Source: Alloalcanivorax dieselolei B5 (lineage in GTDB: Bacteria > Pseudomonadota > Gammaproteobacteria > Pseudomonadales > Alcanivoracaceae). From it: DNA of 64,000 nucleotides. Of the stretch, positions 10,494 to 56,742 are shown piece after piece. Every line of letters begins with the position of its first letter. Positions within the stretch are counted from its first letter, which is position 1. The stretch is from the NCBI RefSeq assembly GCF_000300005.1, contig NC_018691.1:1798001-1862000 (forward strand), read 5' to 3'. Made by a program: the position numbers and the translations under genes. The notes beneath the pieces were generated by a model. It had not been told where the DNA came from. It was given only the letters and a program-made list of their open reading frames with translations, and searched no databases.

Positions 10494-11702
10494 ATGCTTG
10501 ACGCCTACATCTACGACGGTTTGCGCACTCCTTTCGGCCGCCACGCCGGCGCCCTGGCACCGGTACGCCCGGATGACCTGCTGGCTTCCGTCATCAGCAC
10601 CCTGGTCAACCGCAACGACTTCCCCCTGGAGAAGTTCGAGGACGTGGTGGCCGGCAACACCAACCAGGCCGGTGAAGACGCCCGTAACGTGGCCCGTCAC
10701 GCCGGTTTGCTGGCCGGCCTGCCGGAGTCGGTGGCCGGTGTCACCGTGAACCGCCTGTGCGGTTCCGGTCTGGCCGCGACTCTGGACGCCGCCCGCATGG
10801 TCACCGTCAACGAAGGCGATCTGGTGATCGCCGCCGGCGTGGAATCCATGAGCCGCGCCCCGTTCGTCATGGCCAAAGCGCAAACCCCTTATAGCCGTGA
10901 CATGAAGGTGTTCGACAGCACCATCGGCGCGCGCTTCCCCAACCCGAGAATCCTCAAGGAATTCGGCGCCGACACCATGCCGGAAACCGCCCACAACGTG
11001 GCCGCCGAACTGGGCATCAGCCGCGAGGAAGCGGACGCCTATGCGGCCCAGTCCCAGGCCCGTTACGAAGCAGCCCGCGCCGACGGTTTCTTCAAGGAAG
11101 AAATCATGGCGGTGGAAGTGCCCCAGGGCCGCAAGAAGCCGCCCCTGGTGGTGGACGCCGACGAGCACCCGCGTCCGGGCACCGGCGCCGAGCAGCTGGC
11201 CAAGCTGCCGGCCATCGTTGAGGGCGGCATCGTCACCGCCGGCAACGCTTCCGGTGTCAACGACGGCGCCGCCGCGCTGATCATCGGCTCCCGCGCCGCC
11301 GGCGAAGCCGCTGGTATCGCGCCGCGCGCCCGCATCATCGCCGGCGGCGTGGCCGGCGTGGCGCCGCGGGTCATGGGCCTGGGTCCGGTGGAGGCCTGCA
11401 ACAAGGTACTGGACCGTGCCGGTCTGACCCTCAAGGACATGGACGTAATTGAAATCAACGAGGCCTTCGCCACTCAGGTGCTCGGCTGCTGCAAGCAACT
11501 GGGCCTGAAAGGCGACGATGAGCGCCTCAACCCGAACGGTGGCGCCATCGCTGTCGGCCACCCGCTGGGCGCTTCCGGCTCCCGTCTGGCGCTGACCGCG
11601 CTGCGCCAACTGGAGCGCACCGGCGGCCGCTACGCGCTGGTGAGCCTGTGTATCGGTATCGGCCAGGGCGTGGCCATGCTGATCGAGCGCCTGCCGCGCT
11701 AA
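10494..11702 (+). CDS. Acetyl-CoA acetyltransferase / 3-ketoacyl-CoA thiolase
   Basis: Thiolase of 402 residues, full length. The acyl-accepting Cys is residue 89 in VNRLCGSGL, the His lies at 356 in GGAIAVGHPLGASGSR, and the second Cys at 386 in SLCIGIGQG. It cleaves a 3-ketoacyl-CoA to acetyl-CoA and a shortened acyl-CoA. The spacing of motifs and overall look are of the PcaF/PaaJ-like thiolase group, so beta-ketoadipyl-CoA or a related substrate is possible; the sequence alone does not decide. It is divergent from the acyl-CoA dehydrogenase gene and is followed by REP elements and ohrR. Confidence 0.93.
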   Translation: MLDAYIYDGLRTPFGRHAGALAPVRPDDLLASVISTLVNRNDFPLEKFEDVVAGNTNQAGEDARNVARHAGLLAGLPESVAGVTVNRLCGSGLAATLDAARMVTVNEGDLVIAAGVESMSRAPFVMAKAQTPYSRDMKVFDSTIGARFPNPRILKEFGADTMPETAHNVAAELGISREEADAYAAQSQARYEAARADGFFKEEIMAVEVPQGRKKPPLVVDADEHPRPGTGAEQLAKLPAIVEGGIVTAGNASGVNDGAAALIIGSRAAGEAAGIAPRARIIAGGVAGVAPRVMGLGPVEACNKVLDRAGLTLKDMDVIEINEAFATQVLGCCKQLGLKGDDERLNPNGGAIAVGHPLGASGSRLALTALRQLERTGGRYALVSLCIGIGQGVAMLIERLPR

Positions 11703-45055: not shown

Positions 45056-45681
45056 ATGAGACGACTAGCGATCCTAGGTGCTAGCGGGCACGGCAAGGTG
45101 GTGGCTGATGCCGCCTTATGCGCCGGTTGGGACGAAGTGTGCTTCTTTGATGATGCCTGGCCGGCGCTTGAGCGTAATGATGAGTGGCCAGTGGTGGGGG
45201 ACTTCGCCCGTATGTTGCGCCAAGAAGGTACTGACTTTGATGCTGCGGTTGTGGGTATCGGGCGTAATGAGGTTCGCCTTGCCAAGATGGCGGCTCTCAA
45301 GGATGCGGGTATTCCGTTGACCAGCGTTATTCACCCTGCCTCCGTGGTGAGTCGTTACGCCTCTATTAGCGAGGGGTGCGTTATTTTTGGCGGGGCTATC
45401 GTCAATGTCCGTGCCGCTCTTGGTGACGGCTGCATCATTAATACCGGCGCGACGGTGGATCACGATTGTCGCCTGGCTGAAGGCGTTCATATCAGCCCTG
45501 GAGCCAATCTTGCTGGCAATGTGACGGTTGGAAAGGGCTCCTGGGTTGGTATCGGGGCCTGTGTTCGCCAGGGCATCACCATTGGCCGGAACGTGATGGT
45601 GGGCGCTGGTGCGGCGGTAGTTTCATCCCGGATGATGTGACTGTGGTGGGCGTGCCCGCCAAAGTTGTAGAGAGGGATTGA
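45056..45681 (+). pseudogene. PglD-like N-acetyltransferase, frameshifted near its 3' end
   Basis: Sialic-acid O-acetyltransferase / PglD family protein. The N-terminal Rossmann-like part LAILGASGHGKVVADAA and the hexapeptide repeats to NVMVGAGAAVV are intact. The continuous frame stops at 45640 after 194 residues, ending AAVVSSRMM. In the frame starting at 45622 the expected family C-terminus follows (FIPDDVTVVGVPAKVVERD, stop 45679-45681). One base has been lost, or two gained, near 45617-45625. The truncated product lacks only the last coil and may still work, or the shift may be a sequencing error. It would acetylate the 4-amino sugar made by the neighbouring aminotransferase. Confidence 0.82.
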
Positions 45682-45933
45682 GTCATTTTGGGATTACAAC
45701 CCAAGCTTGCTGCCTCCGATGGGCGTTAAAGACGCTGCCCAGGGGCGCTGGCCGGGTGCTGCGGTGAAGTAGAGGGCATGACGAATTCGCTCTTGATGCT
45801 GAACGTATGGCCAGTGTATTGTGAAGGTTGATCTATGGGGCAGGCGAAATAATACATGGAGCGGTGGGTGGTTGCCGCCTCTGAATGTGAGCTAAGATGC
45901 CAGAGATACCTACTTAATCTAAAGGAAAAAATC

Positions 45934-46137
45934 GTGGAAATTCAATCTCTTACCATATCAGAACGAATCCTCCTGGCAGAAGCGTTGTGGGACAGCGTTG
46001 TCGCGGAGAATGCGGATATCCCTCTCTCGGAGTCTCAGAGAGACGAACTTGATCATCGGCTCTCTGCGTTCGAAATAGATCAGGATGAAGGTGACTCATG
46101 GTCTGAGGTCAAAGCCAGGGTATTGTCAAAGAGATGA
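45934..46137 (+). CDS. Addiction module antitoxin, PF09720 family
   Basis: Small protein of 67 residues of the putative addiction-module component family. The core is EIQSLTISERILLAEALWDSVV and DELDHRLSAFEIDQDEGDSWSEVKARV. The start is GTG at 45934, since AAAGGA lies 7 bases upstream; an earlier in-frame start at 45856 would add residues foreign to the family. It overlaps the toxin gene by ATGA. It lies between the PglD-like and PglE-like genes, an insertion into what is normally a contiguous pair. Confidence 0.87.
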   Translation: MEIQSLTISERILLAEALWDSVVAENADIPLSESQRDELDHRLSAFEIDQDEGDSWSEVKARVLSKR

Positions 46138-46433
46138 TCTACAGACTCACTTTCCGGAAGGAGGCGGAGTTTGATATTGGCTCATCCTTTGATTATTACG
46201 AGGAGAAAAGAGAAGGTCTTGGTCACGATTTTCTGCTTTGTGTGGAAGAAGCATTGGGTAAGCTGAGAAGAAACCCATTAATATATCCCTTGATCTATAA
46301 AAATTTAAGGCGCATTCCCATTAGACGCTTTCCTTATCGGTTATTTTATTTGGTAAAGGGGGATCGTATTGTCATCACTGCTGTTTTCCATGCCAGAAAA
46401 GATCCAAGGTCATGGCATAAGCGCACAGAATAG
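46134..46433 (+). CDS. Type II toxin, ParE/RelE superfamily
   Basis: Toxin of 99 residues. RKEAEFDIGSSFDYYEEKREGLGHDFL is the usual N-terminal helix of PF09720-partnered toxins; RRIPIRRFPYRLFYLVKGDRIVITAVFHARKDPRSW is the C-terminal beta-sheet with the active-site basic residues. Coupled to the antitoxin gene by ATGA. The target is unknown. Confidence 0.88.
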   Translation: MIYRLTFRKEAEFDIGSSFDYYEEKREGLGHDFLLCVEEALGKLRRNPLIYPLIYKNLRRIPIRRFPYRLFYLVKGDRIVITAVFHARKDPRSWHKRTE

Positions 46434-46501: not shown

Positions 46502-47677
46502 ATGTTGAACGGACCTTTCCCCCCCTGGCCTTCCTTTACCCAGGAGGAAGCGGACGCGGTGCAACGCGTGCTGCTGTCCAACAAAGTGAACTACTGGACC
46601 GGCCAGGAGTGCCGGGAATTCGAGAAGGAATTCGCTGCCTTTGCCGGGACTGAATACGCTATCGCCGTGGCCAACGGCACCGTGGCGCTTGATCTGGCGT
46701 TGCAAGGGCTGGGCATTGGGCCTGGCGATGAAGTGGTGGTGACGCCACGTACTTTCCTGGCTTCCGCCACCACGGTGATCAATGCCGGGGCGACACCGGT
46801 ATTTGCCGATGTGGATCCGGACACTCAGAACATCACTGCTGAAACCGTCGCCAAGGTGATAACACCGCGTACCAAAGCCGTTATCTGTGTGCACCTGGCC
46901 GGCTGGCCCAGCGATATGGATGCCATGATGGCTTTGGCCGACGAACAGGGCTTCTATGTTATTGAAGACTGCGCCCAGGCCCATGGCGCTACCTGGAAGG
47001 GGCGCCCGGTGGGCGGCTTGGGTCATGTGGGCTGCTGGTCGTTCTGCCAGGACAAGATCATGACCACCGGTGGAGAGGGGGGCATGGTCACCGTGAATGA
47101 CCGTGATCTCTGGTCCCGCATGTGGAGTTTCAAGGACCATGGCAAAAGCTGGGATGCGGTGTATGAACGTGACCATCCGCCGGGCTTCCGTTGGTTGCAT
47201 GAGAGCGTGGGCACCAATTGGCGCATGATGGAAATGCAGGCGGCCATTGGGCGGATTCAGCTGAAGCGTATGCCGGAATGGACTCGCCTACGTCTGGCCC
47301 ATTCCCAGGCCATTTGGCAAACCGCCAGTGACATCCCCGCTTTGCGTATACCGGAAATTCCCACCGAAGTGGGGCATGCTGGTTACAAATGCTATGTGTT
47401 TGTGCAGCCGGAAAAGCTGGTCGAGGGCTGGGATCGTGATCGTATCATGAACGAGATCGTTGCTCGTGGCGTGCCTTGCTTCTCTGGCTCCTGCTCTGAA
47501 GTCTATCTGGAGAAGTGTTTCCAGGACCTCGATCTGGCACCGAATGAGCGCCTGCCGGTAGCCAAGGAACTGGGCGAAACCAGCCTGATGTTCCTGGTGC
47601 ATCCCACCCTGGAGCAGGTACATATCGATAAGACTTGCGAGACACTTCGGGCGGTGATGGCGGAAGCTTCGGCTTAG
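46502..47677 (+). CDS. Sugar aminotransferase, PglE-like (DegT/DnrJ/EryC1/StrS)
   Basis: PLP-dependent aminotransferase of 391 residues. K185 in FCQDKIMTTGGEGGMV is the PLP lysine; VANGTVALDLALQGLGIGPGD and VIEDCAQAHGATWKGRPVG are family motifs. It would convert a 4-keto-6-deoxy UDP-sugar to the 4-amino sugar. The matching UDP-GlcNAc 4,6-dehydratase (WbpM/PglF) is not in this window. The final 90 bp recur at 49732-49821 and, decayed, at 53659-53700. A REP doublet and accessory genes follow instead of further pathway genes. Confidence 0.92.
   Translation: MLNGPFPPWPSFTQEEADAVQRVLLSNKVNYWTGQECREFEKEFAAFAGTEYAIAVANGTVALDLALQGLGIGPGDEVVVTPRTFLASATTVINAGATPVFADVDPDTQNITAETVAKVITPRTKAVICVHLAGWPSDMDAMMALADEQGFYVIEDCAQAHGATWKGRPVGGLGHVGCWSFCQDKIMTTGGEGGMVTVNDRDLWSRMWSFKDHGKSWDAVYERDHPPGFRWLHESVGTNWRMMEMQAAIGRIQLKRMPEWTRLRLAHSQAIWQTASDIPALRIPEIPTEVGHAGYKCYVFVQPEKLVEGWDRDRIMNEIVARGVPCFSGSCSEVYLEKCFQDLDLAPNERLPVAKELGETSLMFLVHPTLEQVHIDKTCETLRAVMAEASA
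47588..47677 (+). repeat. Terminal repeat A: intact 3' end of the aminotransferase gene
   Basis: The last 90 bp of the aminotransferase gene (MFLVHPTLEQVHIDKTCETL onward). It matches copy B (49732-49821) at 84 of 90 bases, and its last 42 bases match copy C (53659-53700) at about 28 of 42. Copies B and C carry no rest of the gene. The copies bound accessory gene modules. Confidence 0.9.
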
Positions 47678-47682
47678 AGGCC

Positions 47683-47755
47683 GTTCGCCAGCAGGCTGGT
47701 TCCCACGGACCATGCCACGAAGCCGCTGTGGGAGCCTGCTCGCAGGCGAATGTGC
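47683..47755. repeat. REP doublet (GTGGGAG subtype)
   Basis: GTTCGCCAGCAGGCTGG with TTCCCACGG, then CCGCTGTGGGAGCCTGCTCG with CAGGCGAATG, directly after the aminotransferase stop and before the two-gene accessory module. Confidence 0.83.
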
Positions 47756-47959
47756 CAACGCCGTACGGCCTGTTTGGAACATTCGGATGACAGGGCAAGG
47801 GGCCCGTGGGCTGACCGCTGCTTCCCAGGCGAGGGGTAGGTTGACAGCCTGAAGCGGGGCGGTGAAGATGCCGTTAATCCGTTGATTTTCTAATCTTTTC
47901 GAGTGCAAGTCATGCAAGCTCGTAGGTGACGGTTTAACAGCAAGCGAAGAATCCGCTCG

Positions 47960-48346
47960 TTGGAAGAACTGGAGGGAATGTATCTAGTGTCTCTGAGCGA
48001 TAGGGTGGTCTATTGCGGTAACCCTGTGCACAAGAGGAACCCAGGCGATTTCGGCTTAAGCCCGCCTGCTGGCCCGCGGCCCGGCAAGTCATTGTGTGAT
48101 ACGGCGGCTATCTTCGAAAAGGCCGTGGCTGGCGAGTTATTGAAGGAAGGCGCCAGGCGCGGTTTGGTAAGCCGACAGGTCAATAATGACTGGCCCCAAA
48201 ATATTTGGGCCGTTACCGACGATGGCATGCCACTGGAGGCGCAATTGGAGAATCGGGAGACTGGGGCCTATCACGGATACCCCATGCCACCGACTGACCC
48301 TTTTGTCGAGCTGGTGATGACGGAATGGGAGGCTCGGCGACCATGA
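47960..48346 (+). CDS. Conserved hypothetical protein, first gene of an ImmA-like module
   Basis: Soluble protein of about 128 residues, unrecognised. Distinct segments are MYLVSLSDRVVYCGNPVHKRN, KSLCDTAAIFEKAVAGELLKEG and NDWPQNIWAVTDDGMPLEAQLE, the last followed by YHGYPMPPTDPF. The Trp-Pro-Gln-Asn-Ile-Trp-Ala-Val stretch looks like a compact toxin- or sensor-like domain, but I cannot place it. The start is either TTG at 47960 or ATG at 47978. Its stop overlaps the next gene by ATGA, so the two act together. The module lies between terminal repeats A and B. Confidence 0.75.
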   Translation: MEELEGMYLVSLSDRVVYCGNPVHKRNPGDFGLSPPAGPRPGKSLCDTAAIFEKAVAGELLKEGARRGLVSRQVNNDWPQNIWAVTDDGMPLEAQLENRETGAYHGYPMPPTDPFVELVMTEWEARRP

Positions 48347-49704
48347 CCAACAAGGGCCTGAGGTTGGGCTTTCAATGGGAAGCCGCGGGTAATGATAATG
48401 CTGAGTCGTATCACACCATGGCGCGGTTGTCGTTAGCCGTTAATGGTTATTCCCTGACACGTAATGAAGATAGCTGGTCGCGTACGGTTAAGGGCGATGT
48501 GCTGGTGTCGTTGTACCCGTTGGCTGTCTGGTTTGCCTCTTCATGGTGGCGTTTGTTGCATGAGCCGCACCCGGGTAAAGGGGTGCGGCCGTCGGTATCT
48601 TGGCGCATGGCCCATGAGTTAGCTGCTGCTAACCAGGGCTATGTTTGGCCTACTGTCATGTTTGCGACCGATGGCGAAGGCATACAAGTCTGGTCTTCAC
48701 CATCGGATGATGGTACTGAACAGTCGGTTCGATATCTGAATAGTTCACGCTTCCCTTCTTTTGTCCCAATGGATGATTTCCGTAAGGAGGTTTCGGCATT
48801 TATCGACGCGGTACTAAGTCGGTTACGTGATTGTGGCTGCACCGATACTGAGCTTGCAACGCTTTGGAAGCTTGTCAGGGATGAACTTGCTGATCCGGAG
48901 ATTGCACGGTTACGTACCTTTGAAGCGATGATGGGGTATGATCCGGAAGAATGTCCTCAATTACTTATGCAATCTATGATCCGCATGACGGATGAGGTGG
49001 GCGAGGAGTCCTTGTCCGAGCTGATATCCGCTTTCGCAAGGGGCAAGGAATTCGGCTCATGCCAGGAGAAGGAAATTGAGCGTTTTGCCGAATTGAAGGG
49101 AATGGAAGGCAAACCGGATATCCCTGATCTTGCAACCTCAAACGGTGTCGGAGAAAGCCATGCACCATGGATGCCGGCGGTTCAGGATGCGAGAAACATA
49201 CGTGATTATTTTGGGTGGGGCTTGGAACCGCTGTCCAATGAGAAACTTCTTTCTGCTCTGGGCATCAGTGCTAAGACCGTTGACAGTTACACGCCGGAAA
49301 ACACATCAAGGGTATCGGTGGCGATCCCGCAGCGTCAGGGCCTAATCCGTTTCATGCCACGTAAGAAGCATCCCGTGGCCCGGCGCTTTGAGTACGCTCG
49401 CCTTCTCGGGGACTGTATATTCCAACAACGTGACGAGGGTTGGCTTGTCTCTTCGGATCTGAGCACGTTTCGGCAGAAATATCAGCGCGCTTTCGCTGCG
49501 GAGCTGTTATGCCCAATTGAGGGGGCAAAGGCGTTTATGCAGGACGATTATTCAGAGTCATCTGTTGAGGATGCTGCGGAGTACTTCGACGTTAGCACAA
49601 CCGCAGTTACCAATTTGCTGGCAAGCAACAACCTTATTGAAACGGATGATTTTTCCGATGGTAAAGATGTCTGGCCTTACCGCCCTATGGTAACGGTTGG
49701 ATAA
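48343..49704 (+). CDS. ImmA/IrrE-like protein lacking the HExxH motif
   Basis: Protein of 453 residues. The N-terminal part (LRLGFQWEAAGNDNAESYHT, VSLYPLAVWFASSWWRLLHEP, AHELAAANQGYVWPTVMF) resembles, from memory, large proteins ending in ImmA/IrrE domains. The C-terminal part has FAAELLCPIEGAKAFM near residue 383, then a winged-helix-like segment DAAEYFDVSTTAVTNLLASNNLI, as after the zinc site of ImmA. Where AHELGH is expected, FEYARLLGDCIF stands (residues 349-360), so the metalloprotease is probably inactive. Translationally coupled to the 128-residue gene; GGGAGG precedes the ATG. A sensor or DNA-binding role in a defence-like module is inference. Confidence 0.75.
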   Translation: MTNKGLRLGFQWEAAGNDNAESYHTMARLSLAVNGYSLTRNEDSWSRTVKGDVLVSLYPLAVWFASSWWRLLHEPHPGKGVRPSVSWRMAHELAAANQGYVWPTVMFATDGEGIQVWSSPSDDGTEQSVRYLNSSRFPSFVPMDDFRKEVSAFIDAVLSRLRDCGCTDTELATLWKLVRDELADPEIARLRTFEAMMGYDPEECPQLLMQSMIRMTDEVGEESLSELISAFARGKEFGSCQEKEIERFAELKGMEGKPDIPDLATSNGVGESHAPWMPAVQDARNIRDYFGWGLEPLSNEKLLSALGISAKTVDSYTPENTSRVSVAIPQRQGLIRFMPRKKHPVARRFEYARLLGDCIFQQRDEGWLVSSDLSTFRQKYQRAFAAELLCPIEGAKAFMQDDYSESSVEDAAEYFDVSTTAVTNLLASNNLIETDDFSDGKDVWPYRPMVTVG

Positions 49705-49975
49705 CGCGGCGTTTTGCCGGCCACGAGTTCAATGTTCCTGGTGCATCCCACCCTGGAGCAGGGACATATCGACAAGACCTGTGAGACGCTTCGGGCGGTG
49801 ATGGCGGAAGCGTCGGCTTAGGCTTGAGCCCTGGACATCGCGGTCCACGGACCGCGGTACTGCCCGAGGAGCCCCCACCGATTGATCTCCTATAAAGTGA
49901 CGGCAACGGCTTACACGAGCTGCTGTTCTGACTGACAGATCAACTTTTCTCTCCACTCCATACTCCCCTTGGGAA
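49705..49975. other. Junction region between the ImmA-like module and IS66
   Basis: No complete gene. It holds terminal repeat B, a palindrome CGGTCCACGGACCG (49841-49854) that also stands after copy C, the sequence CACCGATTGATCTCCT (49876-49891) that recurs at 55321, and finally the 8-bp IS66 target duplication at 49968-49975. Confidence 0.75.
49732..49821 (+). repeat. Terminal repeat B: orphan copy of the aminotransferase 3' end
   Basis: 90 bp with 6 mismatches to 47588-47677, still readable as MFLVHPTLEQGHIDKTCETL and on to the stop codon. No other part of an aminotransferase gene precedes it; the ImmA-like gene ends only 27 bp before it. Confidence 0.92.
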
Positions 49976-50057
49976 GTAAGCGTCCGGCGACCCCATCTTG
50001 AGTCGACGGTTGCGGCCTTCACGATAGTGTCCACTTATTTCTTAGTGGACACTATCG

Positions 50058-50441
50058 ATGGACCCGTTAAGCGTATCTCAGCCCCAACCTCAACCACGAC
50101 GTCGCCGTCACTTCTCCCGTGAGTTCAAGGCGCACATCGTGGCCGCCTGTCAGGAACCGGGCGTGTCCGTCTCCCGGATCGCCCTGGACAACCAACTCAA
50201 CGCCAACCTGGTCCGCCGCTGGATCCGTGAAGCCGAGCAAGCCGGCCAGACAATAACGTCACCCGCGTTTATGCCCTTGGCGGTACCGGTGGCGTCGAGC
50301 CCTCCTGACCGGTCTTGCGCCAAGGAGTCGGGTAACCGCATCCGCATTGAAGTGCCCCGCTCCGGCGGACCGGTCATCGTGGAATGGCCCGCCGAGCAAG
50401 CCCATCAGTGCCTGGCCCTGTTACGCGAGCTGCTGCGATGA
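50058..50441 (+). CDS. tnpA: IS66 accessory protein TnpA
   Basis: Protein of 127 residues with the helix-turn-helix of IS66 OrfA: RRRHFSREFKAHIVAACQEP and NQLNANLVRRWIREAEQAG. It is needed with TnpB and TnpC for IS66 transposition. Its stop overlaps the tnpB start (ATGA). An inverted repeat AGTGTCCACT / AGTGGACACT lies just before its start. Confidence 0.93.
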   Translation: MDPLSVSQPQPQPRRRRHFSREFKAHIVAACQEPGVSVSRIALDNQLNANLVRRWIREAEQAGQTITSPAFMPLAVPVASSPPDRSCAKESGNRIRIEVPRSGGPVIVEWPAEQAHQCLALLRELLR

Positions 50442-50773
50442 TCCGCATCGACGAGATCTGGCTGGCCACCGCGCCACTGGACATGCGCGCCGGACCGGAC
50501 AAGGCCCTGGCCCGGGTGATCCAGGTGTTCGGTGCGGCGAAGCCACATCAGGCTTACCTGTTCGCCAACCGCCGGGGCAACCGCATGAAAGTGCTGATCC
50601 ACGACGGCTTCGGTATCTGGCTGTGCGCCCGCCGGCTCCATCGGGGCAAGTTCCACTGGGGTGACGCTTGGCGCGGCGATCAGTTGCGCCTGAATGAAGA
50701 ACAACTGGCCGCCCTGGTGCAGGGCCTGCCCTGGCAGCGACTGGGCGACGAGGCCGTGATCTCGGTGCTGTAA
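50438..50773 (+). CDS. tnpB: IS66 accessory protein TnpB (IS66_Orf2)
   Basis: Protein of 111 residues. MIRIDEIWLATAPLDMRAGPD and FHWGDAWRGDQLRLNEEQL are diagnostic of IS66 Orf2. The start at 50438 overlaps the tnpA stop; a longer in-frame start would invade tnpA. Confidence 0.94.
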   Translation: MIRIDEIWLATAPLDMRAGPDKALARVIQVFGAAKPHQAYLFANRRGNRMKVLIHDGFGIWLCARRLHRGKFHWGDAWRGDQLRLNEEQLAALVQGLPWQRLGDEAVISVL

Positions 50774-50847
50774 CCACACCTCGTTCCCGTTGGCTATACG
50801 CCCAACCTCCAATCGCCCACCGGGCGCTGGCTTGGCATACTGTCCGC

Positions 50848-52425
50848 ATGACCTCGCGCCCTGACCTCAACGCCCTCTCTCCCGACCAACTCCGTGCCCT
50901 GGCCACCGAGTTGTTCGATCACTTGGAGAGCAAGGATCGGGTCCTCGCCCAAAATGACCGGACCCTCAGCCAACAAGAAAAAGCGATCCGTCACCGCGAC
51001 GCGGTGATCGAGAAACAGGCCCACGAACTGGCGCTGCTCAAGCGCCACAAGTTCGCCCGGCGCAGCGAGCAGTTCAAGGGCGTGCAGGGCCAGTTGCTTG
51101 ACGAACTGATCGACGCCGACCTGGCCGCCATGGAGGCGGAGCTGGCCGAGTTACTTCCAACGCAGGCGCCCCCCGCCGCTGCCAAGCAACAGCCCAAGCG
51201 CGCCCCGCTACCGCCCCAACTGCCCCGCACCCTGATCCACCATGAACCCGAGGATACGCAATGCCGCTGTGGGTGTGCGCTCAAGCGCGTCGGCGAGGAC
51301 ATCAGCGAGAAGCTGGACTACGTGCCGGGCGAGTTCACGGTGGAGCGCCATATCCGGGGCAAGTGGGCCTGCGAGCAATGCGAGACCTTGATCCAGGCGC
51401 CGGTGCCGAGGCAAGTCATCGACAAAGGCATCCCGACGTCTGGGCTGCTGGCCCAGGTGCTGGTGGCCAAGTACGCCGATCATCTGCCCCTGTACCGCCA
51501 GGAGCGCATCTTCGGCCGGGCCGGTCTGGCGATCCCCCGTTCCACCCTGGCCGAGTGGGTGGGCACCTGCGGTGTGTGGTTGCAGCCACTGGTGGATGCG
51601 CTCAGAGCCCAGTTGCTAGCCCAGCCGGTGCTGCACGCGGATGAAACGCCGGTAGCGATGCTGGCACCGGGCAAGAAGAAAACCCACCGGGCCTATGTGT
51701 GGGCTTACTGCAGCACCTCGTTCTCTGAACTGAAGGCCACGGTCTACGACTTCGCGCCCAGCCGGGCGGGCGCACACGCCCGCGCCTTCCTGGGGGACTG
51801 GCATGGCAAGCTGGTGTGTGACGACTACGCTGGCTATAAGGCGGGCTTCGGCGAGGGCATTACCGAGATCGGTTGCCTGGCGCACGCCCGTCGCAAGTTC
51901 CACGACCTGCACGTGGCCAACAAGAGTGAGCTGGCCGCCCAAGCGCTGGAGTCCATCGGTGCGCTGTACGGGATCGAGCGAGAGGCGAAGGATCTGCCGG
52001 ATAAAGACCGCCAGCGCTTGCGCAACGAAAAAGCCCGGCCCATCGCCGACGCCCTGCACCAATGGATGATCTCCCGACGGCAAAAAGTCCCGGACGGCTC
52101 GGGTACGGCCAAAGCCCTGGACTACAGCCTGAAACGCTGGGCGGCGCTGACGCGCTACCTGGACGATGGCGCGGTGCCGATCGACAACAACCGGGTGGAA
52201 AACCAGATCCGCCCCTGGGCGCTGGGGCGCAATAACTGGCTGTTCGCGGGCTCTCTGCGCAGTGGTCAACGTGCGGCCGCCGTCATGAGCCTGATCCAGT
52301 CGGCGAAGCTGAACGGCCACGATCCTTATGCGTATCTGAAGGATGTGCTGGCTCGGCTGCCGACGCACAAGAACAACGCCATCGACGAACTCCTGCCGCA
52401 AAACTGGGCGCCGACCTCCGCCTGA
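50848..52425 (+). CDS. tnpC: IS66 transposase TnpC
   Basis: DDE transposase of 525 residues, full length. An N-terminal leucine-zipper-like helix is followed by a zinc-binding part (CRCGCALKRVGEDISEKLDY, KWACEQCETL). The catalytic residues are D265 in HADETPV, D325/D326 in CDDYAGYKAG and E451 in NNRVENQIRPWALGR. All appear intact. Confidence 0.96.
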   Translation: MTSRPDLNALSPDQLRALATELFDHLESKDRVLAQNDRTLSQQEKAIRHRDAVIEKQAHELALLKRHKFARRSEQFKGVQGQLLDELIDADLAAMEAELAELLPTQAPPAAAKQQPKRAPLPPQLPRTLIHHEPEDTQCRCGCALKRVGEDISEKLDYVPGEFTVERHIRGKWACEQCETLIQAPVPRQVIDKGIPTSGLLAQVLVAKYADHLPLYRQERIFGRAGLAIPRSTLAEWVGTCGVWLQPLVDALRAQLLAQPVLHADETPVAMLAPGKKKTHRAYVWAYCSTSFSELKATVYDFAPSRAGAHARAFLGDWHGKLVCDDYAGYKAGFGEGITEIGCLAHARRKFHDLHVANKSELAAQALESIGALYGIEREAKDLPDKDRQRLRNEKARPIADALHQWMISRRQKVPDGSGTAKALDYSLKRWAALTRYLDDGAVPIDNNRVENQIRPWALGRNNWLFAGSLRSGQRAAAVMSLIQSAKLNGHDPYAYLKDVLARLPTHKNNAIDELLPQNWAPTSA

Positions 52426-52506
52426 CAAGGTGGGATTACCGGACGCTTACCTTGGGAACGGGTTTCGGCCTGTTGGGAGCAGATGGACAATGGGGAGGAG
52501 AGGGCG

Positions 52507-53085
52507 ATGTCGATCAAACTAGAGGGGAATTGGAAGCGAGGGCTGGCCTATGATGTTCACACCCTGGACAGTACGTATCTGGGGGTGGATGAATTCGGAC
52601 ATGATCAGTGGAAAAATACTCGCAGTGAAATCGGGGAGCTGCTCTACCAACTAAAATATCGCGGTGGAACGAGGAATATTAAGGCCATTGTGCAGCTACT
52701 TGACAAAATCAAGGGTATTGAGTCCATGGACTACATACTGCCCATACCGTCAACAAACCACCTCCGGCCTGTTCAGCCTGTCATGGAGGTTGCCCGTGCG
52801 CTTGGCGAGCGGCGTAATGTTGAAGTGCTGGAGACCGCTCTGTGCAAACGTGGAGGAGGGCCGGAACTGAAGAACCTCTCCAATGCAAATGACCGAGAGA
52901 CTCTTCTTCGGGATAACCTCTACCTTGGCGGCACCGTTAGCCTTAGGGACAAGAGTGTGTTATTGCTTGATGATGTCTACAGGTCCGGCACCACATTGAG
53001 GGTAGCAGCGGATATTCTGTATGAGCAAGCTGGTGTCAGGGATGTCTATGTCTTAACGATGACCAAAACCAGGAGCAACCAATGA
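52507..53085 (+). CDS. Phosphoribosyltransferase-like protein (ComF-type), module partner of a SLOG protein
   Basis: Protein of 192 residues. VLLLDDVYRSGTT (151-163, with D155 and D156) is the PRPP-binding motif of type I phosphoribosyltransferases. YILPIPSTNHLRPVQPVMEVA and an LKYRGGTRNIKAI segment are as in ComF-like proteins, although no zinc-finger part is present. The N-terminus (LAYDVHTLDSTYLGVDEFGH) is unusual. The ATG at 52507 is chosen over 52483 because GGGGAGGAG lies 6 bases before it. It overlaps the following SLOG-like gene by ATGA. A role in making or salvaging a nucleotide ligand for the partner is inference. Confidence 0.8.
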   Translation: MSIKLEGNWKRGLAYDVHTLDSTYLGVDEFGHDQWKNTRSEIGELLYQLKYRGGTRNIKAIVQLLDKIKGIESMDYILPIPSTNHLRPVQPVMEVARALGERRNVEVLETALCKRGGGPELKNLSNANDRETLLRDNLYLGGTVSLRDKSVLLLDDVYRSGTTLRVAADILYEQAGVRDVYVLTMTKTRSNQ

Positions 53086-53642
53086 CTTCGGTATTCGTAG
53101 CGGGTTCCCGGCAGCTTGTGCGGCTCAATGAGCAAGTCCTGGAACGCCTGCGGAACATCGTCACGGGTTCTTATCAGGTTCTGATAGGGGATGCCAACGG
53201 GGCCGACAAGGCGGTCCAATCCTTCCTGTTCGGGCAGGGTTATTCGAAGGTTTTGGTTTTCTGTTCAGGTTTGAAATGCCGCAATAATCTGGGGGCATGG
53301 CCTACCTTTAACGTCGATGTGCCGAAAGGTGTCACGGGAAGGGCTTTTTACACCTATAAAGATATCGAAATGGCCAAAAAAGCAGATTACGGCTTGATGC
53401 TTTGGGATGGGAAAAGCCCTGGTACGATCAACAATGTGGCCGAACTTTTGAAGAGAGAAAGGAAAGTTCTGGTCTATTTTGCCCCGAAGCAACTGTTTCT
53501 GCCCGTTGGATCCGTGTGTGATATGGAAGGTCTGCTCCTTCATTGCGCTCCTGATGATGTGTTGAAAATAGAAAAAAAAGTGGGACTGAAAGATAAACTG
53601 CGAAAGGCGGTGGAATCAGAACAGTCTGTGCTTCATTTTTAG
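53082..53642 (+). CDS. SLOG-like nucleotide-binding protein
   Basis: Protein of 186 residues with a Rossmann-like core. VFVAGSRQL (GSR at 8-10) and VLIGDANGADKAVQSFLF (GDANGAD at 36-42) match the pattern of the YspA/cpYpsA branch of the SLOG (SMF/DprA-LOG) superfamily. DIEMAKKADYGLMLWDGKSPGTINNV is the typical third segment that reports on a modified nucleotide. SLOG domains are known in nucleotide-signal and conflict systems; pairing with a phosphoribosyltransferase gene by ATGA overlap suggests the two make and sense a nucleotide. The last bases run into terminal repeat C. Confidence 0.78.
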   Translation: MTSVFVAGSRQLVRLNEQVLERLRNIVTGSYQVLIGDANGADKAVQSFLFGQGYSKVLVFCSGLKCRNNLGAWPTFNVDVPKGVTGRAFYTYKDIEMAKKADYGLMLWDGKSPGTINNVAELLKRERKVLVYFAPKQLFLPVGSVCDMEGLLLHCAPDDVLKIEKKVGLKDKLRKAVESEQSVLHF

Positions 53643-53658
53643 AGGCGGCAAACCCTTT

Positions 53659-53700
53659 TGTGAAGTGTTTCGGGCGGTAATGGGGGAGGCGGCTGAATAG
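53659..53700 (+). repeat. Terminal repeat C: degenerate copy of the aminotransferase 3' end
   Basis: 42 bp readable as CEVFRAVMGEAAE and stop, against CETLRAVMAEASA and stop in the intact gene (about 28 of 42 bases). It begins 16 bases after the SLOG-like stop. The palindrome CGGTCCACGGACCG follows within 40 bases, as after copy B, which supports homology. Confidence 0.75.
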
Positions 53701-53877
53701 CTGGGGATGATGGTCCGTGGATCGCTCGGTCCACGGACCGCAACCACTCTTTTAGCCGTTTCGTGAACCTGTTCATGCGCTCCACAGGAACGGCCTGTCT
53801 TCCCTTCTGTCCAATCACCGACGGATTCATTCGCCAGGGCCGGTTTGTCCCAGGCTGGCCCTGATAAAGGAATACAG

Positions 53878-55191
53878 GTGATTATGGTGTCCTCTCTCCC
53901 CCTCGCGTCTGGGCCGGATCGTGTTTTTTCCGTGCTTTCCAGTCTTCTGCTTTTCGCCTTCCTCTCCCTGTTGATGACCTTCCGCTACAGCTATGCCGTG
54001 GTGCCTTTACTGGCCGGAGGTGTGGCCTTGAGTGGGCTGTTGTTTGTGTGGCTTCAGCCGGGGCATTCCTTGCGGCTGGGCCGGGGAGATGTTCTTTGCC
54101 TGGCTGTTCTTCTTCTGTTCTCCCTGCTTTGGTTGGCGGATGTGGGGCGGACGGGCAAGTGGCCGGTAGGCGAAGGGAACCAGGGTATTCTGCTGCCATT
54201 GTGGCCCATGCTGGCGGCCCTGGTGCTAATGGCCTGGCGTGCGTTTCCGCCGAAGGTTGGGTTTTGGTGGGCCGGGGTGGCGTTGGGGGCGTTGCTGGCC
54301 GGGGGCATCGCTTCCTATGAGCATTGGGTGCTGGGGCGCGGGCGGCCGGACAATGGCATGAACGCCATTCCCTTCGGTAATATTTCGTTGTTGTTGGCGA
54401 CGCTATCGCTGGTGGGACTACTAACGCGATTGGGGATGCGGCCTGTGAAAGGGGAGTGGTGGTTGCGGGGCTTTTACGCGCTGGCAATCGGTGCCGGTTT
54501 GCTCGCCGCCGTGCTGTCGGGCACCCGAGGCAGTTGGATTGTTTTCCCGGCTCTGATTTTGCTGGTGTTTGGCGTTTTCTGGCGGCAATTGCATCGGGGC
54601 GGCATGGTGGCCTTGGCGCTTTTGGTGGCGGTGGTGGTTCTGAGTGCGTCCTTCATGCCCCGGGCCGGGGTGACCCAGCGCGTGGCCCAGGCGGTGGAGA
54701 ATCTGGAGGAATATACTGAAGGCGATACCTATTCCTCTCTGGGCATTCGCCTGGAAATGTGGCGGGCCGGTGTCCGGTTGTTCCGTGAGAAGCCCATTCT
54801 TGGTTGGGGCGAAGGGCGGTTGGAGGAGCGCCGTGACCAATGGGTGTCTGAGGGGCTTTACGATAAGGGCATCAGCCGTTACGACCAACTCCACAACGAC
54901 CTGATCGATACCGCCGCCCGCCGTGGTCTGGTGGGGCTGGTTTCGTTATTGCTGCTGTATGGCGTGCCGCTCGTCCTGTTCGCTACACACTTGCGGCGTC
55001 GCAGGGATGTTCAGGGACAGGCGCTGGCCTTGTCCGGGGTAATCGTGGTGGTGGCGTTCATCGGTTTCGGGCTGACGCAGTCCCTGTTGCGGGATGTGCG
55101 CGGGTTGTCCGGCTTCCTCGGGATGCTGACGGCGTGCTGGTGTTTGTTGAAGGCGACGCCGGAGGGTGCGAGAGAAACGGCTCAAAGCTGA
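53878..55191 (+). CDS. O-antigen ligase/polymerase superfamily membrane protein
   Basis: Polytopic inner-membrane protein of 437 residues with about 11 spans and a long periplasmic loop. Wzy_C/WaaL features are AAVLSGTRGSWIVFPALI, LEMWRAGVRLFREKPILGWGEG and YDQLHNDLIDTAARRGLVGL, with the conserved His in the last. It may be the ligase WaaL that joins the polymer to lipid A-core, while the AT-rich gene at 38538 would be Wzy; the reverse cannot be excluded. GC-rich, unlike wzy. The GTG at 53878 follows AAAGGA; a TTG at 53845 and an ATG at 53884 are alternatives. Confidence 0.85.
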   Translation: MIMVSSLPLASGPDRVFSVLSSLLLFAFLSLLMTFRYSYAVVPLLAGGVALSGLLFVWLQPGHSLRLGRGDVLCLAVLLLFSLLWLADVGRTGKWPVGEGNQGILLPLWPMLAALVLMAWRAFPPKVGFWWAGVALGALLAGGIASYEHWVLGRGRPDNGMNAIPFGNISLLLATLSLVGLLTRLGMRPVKGEWWLRGFYALAIGAGLLAAVLSGTRGSWIVFPALILLVFGVFWRQLHRGGMVALALLVAVVVLSASFMPRAGVTQRVAQAVENLEEYTEGDTYSSLGIRLEMWRAGVRLFREKPILGWGEGRLEERRDQWVSEGLYDKGISRYDQLHNDLIDTAARRGLVGLVSLLLLYGVPLVLFATHLRRRRDVQGQALALSGVIVVVAFIGFGLTQSLLRDVRGLSGFLGMLTACWCLLKATPEGARETAQS

Positions 55192-55212
55192 TTTCTGAGC
55201 GGCTGTGGGAAG
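55183..55212 (+). repeat. 30-bp direct repeat, left copy (ligase gene 3' end)
   Basis: CAAAGCTGATTTCTGAGC followed by GGCTGTGGGAAG, which contains the ligase gene stop codon. It recurs at 56619-56648 with one mismatch. The two copies bound the HigBA-containing segment. Confidence 0.85.
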
Positions 55213-55322
55213 CTTGCTTGCAAGCGAATGCCCAACACCGGAGGCCGTATTCACCAGCAGGCTGGCTCCCACAGAAACCTCAGCTACGAAGCCGCTGTGG
55301 GAGCCGCCCGGCAAGCTTCCCA
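55196..55322. repeat. REP doublet and extra unit (GTGGGAG subtype)
   Basis: GGCTGTGGGAAGCTTGCTTG with CAAGCGAATG, its partner ATTCACCAGCAGGCTGGC with CCCACAG, then a further left-hand unit CCGCTGTGGGAGCCGCCCGG. They follow the ligase gene stop. Confidence 0.85.
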
Positions 55323-55463
55323 CTGATTGATCTCCTGCAAGGTAACGACACAGGTCTTGGGTCTGGCCAAGCCTGCTTGATACTGTTTATATGGGCAGCA
55401 TATTGTGATGGGTAATCCATGGGTCAATTCATGACTTCGGTACTCGTGGCGGGGGCTAACGAG
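55321..55463 (+). pseudogene. Relic of a second PRTase-SLOG module
   Basis: CACTGATTGATCTCCT at 55321 matches the left boundary of the intact PRTase-SLOG unit at 49876. At 55431, ATGACTTCGGTACTCGTGGC matches the first bases of the SLOG-like gene at 53082 (21 of 23 bases through the following GGG), coding MTSVLVAG against MTSVFVAG. Everything between and after has been lost. It looks like an internally deleted copy of the module. Confidence 0.65.
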
Positions 55464-55519: not shown

Positions 55520-55813
55520 ATGGCTGTCGAATTCAGGGACGTGTGGCTGGAGGCGTTTTACGAGAATAGCCAAAGCCATCGGAGGATACCCAGTACCATC
55601 GAAGGGGCATTGTTCAGGAAGCTGGAGATCCTGGACGCGGCGACCCGGGAGTCTGACTTGAGGAGCTCTCCGGGGAATCGGTTCGAGCACCTTGAAGGAA
55701 ATCTGGACGGGTGGTGTTCTATCCGGGTAAACAAGCAGTACCGCCTGATCTTCGAATGGATCGATGGCGTTGCTCAAGGCACTTATCTGGATCCTCATAT
55801 CTACAAGGGCTAG
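55520..55813 (+). CDS. higB: HigB-type toxin (RelE superfamily)
   Basis: Ribosome-dependent mRNA interferase candidate of 97 residues. The family pattern is EGALFRKLEILDAATRESDLRSSPGNRFEHLEGNLDGWCSIRVNKQYRLIFEW and DPHIYKG at the end, with the catalytic-type Arg and His positions present. The toxin gene stands first, before the HTH antitoxin, as is normal in higBA. A clear promoter with an inverted repeat lies upstream. Confidence 0.92.
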   Translation: MAVEFRDVWLEAFYENSQSHRRIPSTIEGALFRKLEILDAATRESDLRSSPGNRFEHLEGNLDGWCSIRVNKQYRLIFEWIDGVAQGTYLDPHIYKG

Positions 55814-55827
55814 TGGAGGATAAGGTT

Positions 55828-56157
55828 ATGCGGAACACAAGACGTCGTCCGGTCACGGTTGGCGAGATGCTGGTGAGCGAGTTCCTGGAGCCCATGAATA
55901 TCGAAATCGGTGAGCTGGCCGAGGCAATGGGCGTCCACAGGAACACGTTGAGCCGGATCGTTCACGACAAAGGCGTTCTGACCGCCCCCATGGCGATCAA
56001 GTTGGCCGCGGCCTTGGGGAACACCCCGGAATTCTGGCTCAATATTCAACACGCGGTGGCGTTGTGGGATGTACGCCAGAGTGCCCATGAGCATGAAGCG
56101 AGAAACGTGAGAAGAGTCACGGGGCACTTGGAGAATAGAAAAGCGGCGACTCTTTGA
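55828..56157 (+). CDS. higA: HigA antitoxin (XRE family)
   Basis: HTH antitoxin of 109 residues. RRRPVTVGEMLVSEFLEPMNI and GELAEAMGVHRNTLSRIVHDKG form the DNA-binding part, followed by LAAALGNTPEFWLNIQHAVALW, all typical of HigA. The ATG at 55828 follows GGATAAGG and is 14 bases after the higB stop. Confidence 0.93.
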   Translation: MRNTRRRPVTVGEMLVSEFLEPMNIEIGELAEAMGVHRNTLSRIVHDKGVLTAPMAIKLAAALGNTPEFWLNIQHAVALWDVRQSAHEHEARNVRRVTGHLENRKAATL

Positions 56158-56545: not shown

Positions 56546-56618
56546 GGTGCCTCCGCGAGTGGTGATGTTGCCATGCTATCGCGGTTCAGAGGCGCTAACA
56601 AGGCGGTCAAAAGGGGCG

Positions 56619-56648
56619 CAAAGCTGATTTCTGAGCTGCTGTGGGAAG
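56619..56648 (+). repeat. 30-bp direct repeat, right copy
   Basis: CAAAGCTGATTTCTGAGC followed by TGCTGTGGGAAG, one mismatch to 55183-55212. Here it is not preceded by a ligase gene, so it marks the right boundary of the segment carrying HigBA. Confidence 0.85.
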
Positions 56649-56742
56649 ATTGCCGGGCGGCGCTCCGCTTGCAAGCGAATTGCCAACGGCAGGGGAAAAT
56701 AATTCGCTGCCAAGGCAGCTCCCACAGCGGCTTCGTTGTCCG
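56630..56742. repeat. REP doublet, diverged subtype
   Basis: GCTGCTGTGGGAAGATTGCC, an insert GGGCGGCGCTCC, GCTTGCAAGCGAATTGCC, then ATTCGCTGCCAAGGCAGC with TCCCACAGC. The right half with TGCCAAGGCAGC differs from the common GCCAGCAGGCTGGC form and recurs at 60025-60058 and, inverted, at 63443. Confidence 0.8.

Follow-up and report, generated by a model that had tools for sequence, protein, structure and literature searches.

We hold, with slightly better than even confidence, that the 3′ end of a DegT/DnrJ/EryC1/StrS aminotransferase gene (AT) is a recurrent entry site, at which module DNA enters repeatedly by a single crossover without an integrase. This model is drawn from an empty site, a distal gene end colinear with the native downstream sequence, varied cargo, copies of variable length and a step in identity within the AT end. 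The features of the window, by which we mean the whole 64-kb stretch of DNA analysed, are collected in Table 1. AT positions are counted back from the stop, with -1 as the final base of the gene. The gene is set in a polysaccharide locus of Alloalcanivorax, and its nearest NCBIfam models are sugar transaminases, every one under cut-off.

Table 1. Coordinates of the aminotransferase gene, its displaced ends and the neighbouring modules in the window
Feature	Position	Strand	Evidence
Intact DegT/DnrJ/EryC1/StrS aminotransferase (AT), source of copied 3′ end	46502..47677	+	Pfam PF01041, E 1.8e-95
Copy A, 3′ end of the functional gene	47588..47677	+	final 57 bp 56/57 to Alcanivorax sp. 24
Putative recombination boundary, AT -58 to -52	47620..47626	+	A. 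xenomutans-like before, sp. 24-like after
REP-like dispersed repeat directly after AT stop, left edge of module 1	47678..47770	+	at least 52 matches in own genome (40 of 178 candidates scored)
Module 1 gene 1, 128 aa	47960..48346	+	no family found
Module 1 gene 2, 459 aa	48325..49704	+	weak RmrA-like C-terminal match
Copy B, displaced AT end, -90 to stop	49732..49821	+	84/90 to A
Palindrome of native AT-ligase spacer, after B	49839..49856	.	window 49732-49856 matches A. xenomutans (L062) 11087-11212
IS66-family element, secondary insertion	49976..52450	+	8-bp CTTGGGAA at 49968-49975 and 52451-52458
Module 2 gene 1, phosphoribosyltransferase related to PsyrT/ShosT	52483..53085	+	PADLOC PsyrT E 4.8e-14, ShosT E 4.6e-10
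Module 2 gene 2, 186 aa	53082..53642	+	no model match
Copy C, decayed, older displaced AT end	53659..53700	+	31/42 to B
Palindrome of native spacer, after C	53727..53740	.	then colinear into ligase; window 53727-55217 = L062 11197-12687, 92.8%
O-antigen ligase-type gene (Wzy_C)	53845..55191	+	Pfam PF04932; next gene after AT in A. xenomutans
Ligase end, proximal copy of 39-bp repeat (-13 to +26)	55179..55217	+	36/39 to 56615-56653
HigB-type toxin and HTH gene, inserted behind ligase	55520..56157	+	PF05015 E 7.9e-38; HTH_3 E 3.6e-9
Distal (resident) ligase-end copy	56615..56653	+	56615-56714 = 97/100 columns to L062

Repeated gene ends and the modules between them

A repeat search recovered the A/B pair at 93% and a three-member family at 47636-47677, 49780-49821 and 53659-53700, in which C is 74% identical to B. 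The local alignment of A with B spans exactly AT -90 to the stop, and the best 42-mer of C against B was equalled by none of 2000 dinucleotide shuffles of 53643-53726 and by none of 100 shuffles of the 6 kb around it. On these three grounds the preliminary description was right about the A/B repeat, its decayed third copy and their coordinates; its statement that no other part of the gene accompanies the copies is borne out for B, beside which the alignment finds no further AT sequence, and its suggestion that B and C differ in age agrees with their difference in decay. Copy C lies where a native gene end is expected, as the A. xenomutans AT end and spacer (-43 to +194) align through it to the ligase start over 195/246 columns. 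The palindrome described just 3′ of both B and C is indeed there, at 49841-49854 and 53727-53740, respectively; since the same palindrome is found in the A. xenomutans empty site, 19-36 bp past the AT stop, it belongs to the native spacer and is no part of any module. Copy B is 83/90 identical to A. xenomutans and likewise 83/90 to Alcanivorax sp. 24. Five of the six differences between A and B are synonymous, as are five of six in a second genus (G055), as would be seen between two working alleles.

The 459-aa protein of module 1 has weak PADLOC matches only (RmrA, E 2.1e-4; capP, E 0.003) and is matched in 5 of 369 class genomes, its own counted, while the 128-aa protein has no family match in Pfam, PADLOC or NCBIfam; the 'ImmA-like' label once attached to this pair is given by none of these three libraries. 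The ORF pair also occurs in L063 and, by eye, in L201 and L202. Module 2 had been described as a phosphoribosyltransferase-SLOG pair, of which the first half stands on the PsyrT and ShosT models and the second is given by no library: the 186-aa protein, found in 3 of 369 class genomes with its own counted, matches no model in Pfam, NCBIfam or PADLOC, and SLOG is a label that we assign by eye. We take a DprA/SLOG-type antitoxin to be the partner of the phosphoribosyltransferase in toxin-antitoxin (TA) defence of the ShosTA/PsyrTA type, which module 2 resembles in its first gene but not, by any model match, in its second. The IS66 element is a later arrival, as already proposed, with inverted ends of 25 nt (84% complementary) and the 8-bp CTTGGGAA on both sides. 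REP-like sequence adjoins module 1 on its left and also touches the ligase-end repeat. A displaced ligase end also occurs in sp. 24, where a different ligase (64% protein, 72% DNA) is followed by a 211-bp native-type piece.

The same junction in related genomes

Comparison with relatives, the check that the preliminary description had proposed, gave an empty site and other cargo at the same gene end, in keeping with its claim of a recurrent entry site. In A. xenomutans (L062) the AT is followed by 138 bp and the ligase. The spacer after C is this native AT-ligase spacer, so that the distal end is the resident one. In a congeneric species (G009), the distal end is colinear with its sister G010 (94.7% over an alignment length of 1,130, from AT -111). 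Thus, an insertion relative to an empty relative is shown twice, by L062 for the window and by G010 for G009, and to the question of which end is native the answer, where testable (window C and G009), is the distal one.

By our reading, an accessory module directly follows the AT in 5 of the 29 family genomes with this gene, with four cargo types. Displaced AT ends are present in three of the 29, namely the window, G009 (two pieces) and G055, the last with a TA-type pair on either side of the displaced copy. Different cargo lies between partial end copies in G009 and G055 and after an intact end in G008 and G011; in G011 the module sits at the junction without an end copy and, compared with the layout of G012, bases +5 to +30 are replaced. 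The left edges of the AT copies differ (-284/-281, -130, -90 and about -43), as do the repeat lengths, which are 90 bp for B, 133 bp for G055 and ~43 bp of AT for C; the G009 repeats run from AT -111, with a further part covering -284 to -238. The copied ends of two neighbouring genes have left edges at -13 and -11. In sp. 24 the AT and module 1 are found without copy B, possibly the layout of a donor. A 19-bp match of G046 to its own AT end was left uncounted.

Displaced gene ends are not dense genome-wide in an 864-kb sample (40 stretches of 20 kb and the window in three pieces, 793 ORFs), as judged from the five same-strand downstream copies of gene ends that remained, out of 15, once matches were limited to those with at most four copies in the sample. 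These five comprise the AT twice (once via an antisense ORF), an O-methyltransferase with a 191-aa frame after it, a near-full tandem paralogue and one copy in L179; the other matches kept were three of gene starts, one upstream end (the near-full tandem paralogue again) and one end on the opposite strand. Dispersed REP repeats were considered as the sole cause and rejected, as copy B is not REP sequence and matches the sample only twice. A 32-bp similarity (81%) between the left edge of module 2 and that of the HigB module is absent elsewhere in the sample. Across 81 loci (the best 80 of 401 named matches, and the window), close AT-end pieces occur in L071 and the window only. Another scan took in 96 sources (1.87 Mb, 1594 ORFs), from which five loci that repeat the same genomes had been dropped and among which L050 overlaps the window; it gave 32 gene-end copies downstream on the same strand, many from REP or tandem repeats, and of these the AT copies and L127 were looked at more closely. 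We found no report of truncated gene copies at defence islands in one open-access library.

An identity step in the gene end and the route of entry

Over AT -272 to -58 the window agrees with sp. 24 at 178/215 positions and with A. xenomutans at 202/215, and over -57 to -1 at 56/57 and 50/57, respectively. The best split, from 58 informative sites in the final 500 bp, falls after -58. Identity to sp. 24 then stays at 97-100% per 60 bases from 47670 to 48149, into the module, and this jump that continues into the module points to a recombination boundary inside the 90-bp repeat. The signal of homologous recombination comes from one set of four genomes. Copy A is 86/90 identical to sp. 24, and within these final 90 bp there are just two sites, -40 and -10, at which A agrees with sp. 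24 and differs from both B and A. xenomutans. Among the six sp. 24-like sites, A. xenomutans has a private state at three (-52, -28, -5); when L064 serves as the outgroup, a single site supports the window and sp. 24 together. Further upstream (-500 to -273) the sites are mixed, 9 being A. xenomutans-like and 15 sp. 24-like, which implies that the AT has recombined more than once, so that the step at -58 does not necessarily mark the insertion. That the proximal end travels with the module, and is therefore the donor's, is favoured by the identity step, short of proof, and the same holds for the earlier proposal that each module brings its own end copy.

In the single-crossover model, DNA of a related strain carrying an AT end with a module behind it would enter the cell and, as a circularised fragment, integrate Campbell-wise by one homologous crossover within the AT end. 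The gene would be kept intact as resident body plus donor end, while the resident end, from the circle joint onwards (-90, -130 or -284), would come to lie beyond the module, still joined to its native spacer. Repetition would place the newest module beside the gene, with the older ends decaying at a greater distance, giving the order A, module 1, B, module 2, C, ligase. We infer the circular intermediate, the single crossover itself and dependence on RecA. A ComEC/Rec2 homologue is present in the genome. There is a laboratory counterpart in E. coli conjugation: PMC3240628 reports that 56/60 Lac- recombinants gave a PCR product of a partial lacZ-end duplication, which measured 109-950 bp in the 14 that were sequenced and was attributed to a shortened circle integrating by single crossover. 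Several observations sit less easily with the single-crossover model. The two G009 pieces have nearly the same left edge (-284, -281), unexpected for random joints; the G011 junction module lacks an end copy; G055 has no close empty relative; and the AT-end signal comes from few sites, with B equidistant from both relatives.

A module might instead insert itself by a process that duplicates a long and variable target, in the sense of Nobusato and Kobayashi, a possibility of some weight that we nonetheless think unlikely. Such insertion with long target duplication is described for restriction-modification (R-M) units (Nobusato et al. 2000, Gene 259:99, as described in PMC3874152, PMC3031569 and PMC1643837), with duplications 'in the order of 100 bp' according to the first two. 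Here too the cargo is TA-type in several cases, the direct repeats are variable (15 to >100 bp), there is no transposase apart from the later IS66, and A and C in G009 have, by our reading, common states absent from G010, which fits copying within the lineage and counts against the single-crossover model. On the other hand, neither window module matches an R-M family in Pfam, PADLOC or NCBIfam, and copies made in place should start identical, whereas the proximal end in the window is nearer to sp. 24 than to its own distal copy (84/90), by a small margin. Homology-facilitated illegitimate recombination of linear DNA, with a homologous left join and an illegitimate right join in the resident gene that leaves its end behind, would explain variable right joins without an integrase, and G011 and the displaced ligase end of sp. 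24 look like such cases. We consider it distinctly improbable, as the boundary at -58/-52, if it is the left crossover, is on the 3′ side of the right join at -90 and a duplication would be needed; moreover, this process usually deletes, according to PMC3240628.

The geometry, in which the gene is restored and the resident end displaced, and its recurrence resemble an attachment site, and the AT end could be one for site-specific elements whose integrase was lost or acts in trans. A site-specific integrative element has a fixed core and a linked integrase; the copies share no common edge, and the 64-kb window has no recombinase gene of PF00589 or PF00239. PF00589 occurs at five places in the genome, all outside the window, and PF00239 has no match in the genome. 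The statement that there is no integrase gene here thus stands for the two families searched, whereas the comparison with attachment sites is unsupported, given the copied stretch without a fixed edge and the lack of either family, and we hold this explanation to be very improbable. Equally small is the probability we give to whole-gene duplications later deleted down to their ends, which the preliminary description had named as the reading that would overturn its own. The distal pieces are partial AT copies, as such deletions would leave; against this, 46 family genomes hold, among the matches listed, no second AT match above 44% identity besides end pieces, the extra close pieces seen are 3′ parts, cargo differs between copies, and native spacer follows the distal ends.

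Relation to known systems and what the displaced ends record

The locus shares with R-M units, as far as the cited sources describe them, empty relatives, long variable direct repeats, selfish or defence-type cargo and the lack of a transposase. Unlike those units, the cargo here is TA-like or unnamed, events recur and stack up at a single gene end, the proximal copy may stem from a donor and the proposed step is ordinary homologous recombination. Many gene-gain hotspots lack integrases, according to PMC5635113, and the locus resembles them in this respect and in cargo turnover, a polysaccharide setting (rfb is named there) and a recombination signal in the flanking gene; however, a double crossover would leave no copies, whereas here displaced ends record single-sided events in order. 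The lacZ case (PMC3240628) is alike in its partial gene-end duplications of variable length around inserted DNA, but concerns a selected laboratory plasmid, as opposed to natural modules that recur at the same site across several species.

The route by which individual small defence modules enter genomes is not settled. The cargo of these modules may defend or addict the cell. In a broader reading that we offer only speculatively, the AT 3′ end would be a general docking site of Alcanivoracaceae without a recombinase of its own, where defence or TA cassettes are addressed by a carried end copy, host recombination does the work and a time-ordered stack results, comparable to an integron array in logic, not in enzyme. 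The displaced ends record in what order the modules came in, where the copies have their edges and, possibly, whether each end is of resident or donor origin, and with such a record recombination-driven insertion can be weighed by sequence against self-driven insertion.

The native end of the aminotransferase gene

The window (G000:C1:1798001-1862000) lies within a 4.93-Mb single-contig genome. Its aminotransferase gene (AT), of the DegT/DnrJ/EryC1/StrS family, has a PglD-type gene and a ParE-type toxin-antitoxin (TA) pair upstream and a Wzy_C ligase gene downstream; the nearest relatives by AT are Alloalcanivorax xenomutans JC109 (L062, 96%), Alcanivorax sp. 24 (L063, 95%) and A. balearicus (L064, 95%). 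AT positions are counted backward from the stop, with -1 as the last base. The preliminary description had reported displaced AT 3'-end copies, B after module 1 (a 128-aa and 459-aa ORF pair) and C after module 2 (a PRTase and its partner), and had proposed looking for uninterrupted AT-ligase order in a relative. Both copies were confirmed as described, and A. xenomutans has that order, its ligase ORF beginning 138 bp after the AT. Three separate stretches of the window align with this empty site (table), and direct alignment carries the third further left, across C, as far as AT base -43. C and the sequence downstream are therefore the native right side. B, with its native-spacer piece, is an end of intermediate position, and the newest junction is that of A, flanked by REP-like sequence. 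B retains 84/90 identity to A and is less decayed than C, whose differences fall mostly at amino-acid-changing positions (9/14 versus A, 8/11 versus B), a pattern that a long-nonfunctional fragment should show. Of the two insertions, module 1 is thus probably the more recent, in line with the earlier reading of two events of different age.

Coordinates of features in the window and compared loci
Feature	Locus	Position	Content
Empty-site match, piece 1	window	46502-47677	AT
Empty-site match, piece 2	window	49732-49856	B and 35 bp native spacer with palindrome
Empty-site match, piece 3	window	53727-55217	spacer and ligase
PglD-like gene	window	45615-45690	frameshift
TA pair	window	45856-46433	Unstab_antitox/ParE-type
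Left flank, PRTase module	window	49874-49905	32-bp sequence
Left flank, HigB module	window	55319-55350	32-bp sequence
PglD-AT spacer, sp. 24	L063	7381-9765	TA genes
REP-like array, sp. 24	L063	19324-20344	tandem units
Pseudomonas fluorescens PS691	L127	11335-19003	displaced end piece
Window's genome, elsewhere	L199	12494-13762	displaced end copy
G307	L201	5293-7931	module-1-like pair
G132	L203	4710-12981	PRTase and partner

The neighbouring PglD-AT spacer also gathers TA modules. In sp. 24, it contains a Phd/PIN pair, an antitoxin of an addiction module, and AbiEi together with a partial AbiEii. PglD and AT adjoin in A. xenomutans, unlike in the window, where the tabulated TA pair lies between them. 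Relative to A. xenomutans and sp. 24, a frameshift close to the 3' end truncates the window's PglD-like gene. Elsewhere in the sp. 24 locus, REP-like units form a tandem array with a period of ~91 bp.

Recurrence at this and other gene ends

Among 46 genomes of the family searched, 29 carry this AT at no less than 64% identity; all 29 loci were inspected, of which three had little right flank (G001 1.1 kb, G002 3.7 kb, G052 7.4 kb). By inspection, five of them have an accessory module immediately after the AT (the window, sp. 24 (G008) with the same pair, G009, G055 and G011), a count that leaves out a 263-aa ORF after the AT in G010. Displaced AT ends (matches of at least 40 bp) occur in three: the window, G009 and G055. 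G009, of the same genus, has AT-end pieces at +2382 (-281 to -159) and +4897/+4935 (-284 to -238, then from -111 on). The distal piece is colinear with the sister genome G010, which has no insert. The cargo of G009 comprises a TIGR04255 protein, an HTH protein, a protein without a named family and further genes, including a hexapeptide-type one. In G055, of another genus, the AT is followed by a Gp49/HTH pair and then by a 133-bp copy of the AT end (127/133). After a stretch of spacer common to A's flank (43/50 columns) comes another Gp49 gene, whose antidote-like partner matches TIGR02684 below the cut-off; further genes lead on to the region directly 3' of the AT in two other loci (L084 and L152). 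Different genes between partial copies of one AT end, the variation expected of an insertion hotspot, are thus seen in both genomes. Compared with G012, G011 has three ORFs, one MqsA-type, at a junction without an end copy, bases +5 to +30 being replaced.

The same geometry is found at other gene ends. Behind the window's ligase, a HigB/HTH pair is flanked by a 39-bp repeat of the ligase end (36/39), whose distal copy matches A. xenomutans in 97/100 columns. Two 15-bp copies of the PglD end enclose a Phd/PIN pair behind that gene in sp. 24, and window-like sequence (147/181) resumes at the distal copy. In P. fluorescens PS691, where the cargo differs, the gene following the AT has a 105-bp piece of its end repeated 5.6 kb downstream, with other genes in between.

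Elsewhere in the window's genome, a 191-aa frame stands behind an O-methyltransferase-like gene (by eye), and a displaced 52-bp copy of that gene's end comes after it (43/52). The left flanks of the PRTase and HigB modules have a 32-bp sequence in common (81%), which was not found elsewhere in the sampled genome.

Cargo of the modules

The module 2 PRTase matches the PsyrT and ShosT models, and its partner was matched in 3 of 369 genomes of the class, its own included. In G132 the two stand between genes resembling type I R-M subunits (by eye), and in G342 the partner adjoins a different gene. Module-1-like pairs were seen by eye in G307 and in G321, where the pair lies beside an apparent RelE/YefM pair. 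Both modules are putative defence or TA-type cargo. In G307, the pair lies between the two copies of a 25-bp direct repeat (92%, E 0.001).

The module 1 junction and mode of entry

In sp. 24 both module 1 ORFs are joined to the AT at the same left junction as in the window (459-aa proteins 87% identical), without a B copy after them; a different ligase follows (64% protein, 72% DNA), then a 211-bp native-type ligase piece (93% to the window's). Along the AT, the window is identical to sp. 24 at 208/228 (-500 to -273), 178/215 (-272 to -58) and 56/57 (-57 to -1), and to A. xenomutans at 202/228, 202/215 and 50/57. At positions separating these two relatives, the first interval is mixed (A. xenomutans 9, sp. 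24 15, neither 2); in the second the window shares the A. xenomutans state at 26/30 (sp. 24 2, neither 2), and in the last the sp. 24 state at 6/6. The match to sp. 24 continues at 97-100% per 60 bases over 47670-48149, then falls to 87-88%. This identity step and continued match place a recombination boundary within the 90-bp repeat, the position expected from a single crossover. At three of the six sp. 24-like end sites, it is A. xenomutans that carries a private state, and just two sites, -40 and -10, group A with sp. 24 and B with A. xenomutans. B is equally distant from both (83/90 each), and the AT shows more than one tract.

The repeated ends had been likened to attachment sites lacking an integrase gene. 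For the two recombinase families searched, the lack holds in the window: the genome's five PF00589 places all lie outside it, and no PF00239 match was found. A fixed core does not, as left edges vary (-90; about -43; -130; -284/-281; ligase -13; PglD -11; O-methyltransferase -48), and both results argue against an attachment core. A circularised fragment could instead integrate by single crossover within the AT end, which would restore the gene with a donor end, displace the resident end, give copies of variable length and leave the crossover inside the repeat. Displaced resident ends and variable copy length fit the cases seen; donor origin of the proximal end and crossover within the repeat are suggested by one set of genomes only. 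In E. coli conjugation, 56 such events are reported against 4 illegitimate ones; the duplicated ends spanned 109-950 bp in the 14 clones sequenced (PMC3240628). The AT-end modules also work like R-M units inserted with long target duplication, on the order of 100 bp (PMC3874152), but are not assigned to that class because neither window module holds an R-M gene and the proximal copy may be donor-derived.

Hotspots that lack an integrase and show recombination in their flanking genes are already known (PMC5635113). The phenomenon at the AT end is real, recurrent and partly explained; as far as our literature searches show, what is apparently new is that insertions have stacked repeatedly and in order behind a single gene end in two genera, and that one repeat still shows a recombination boundary within it.
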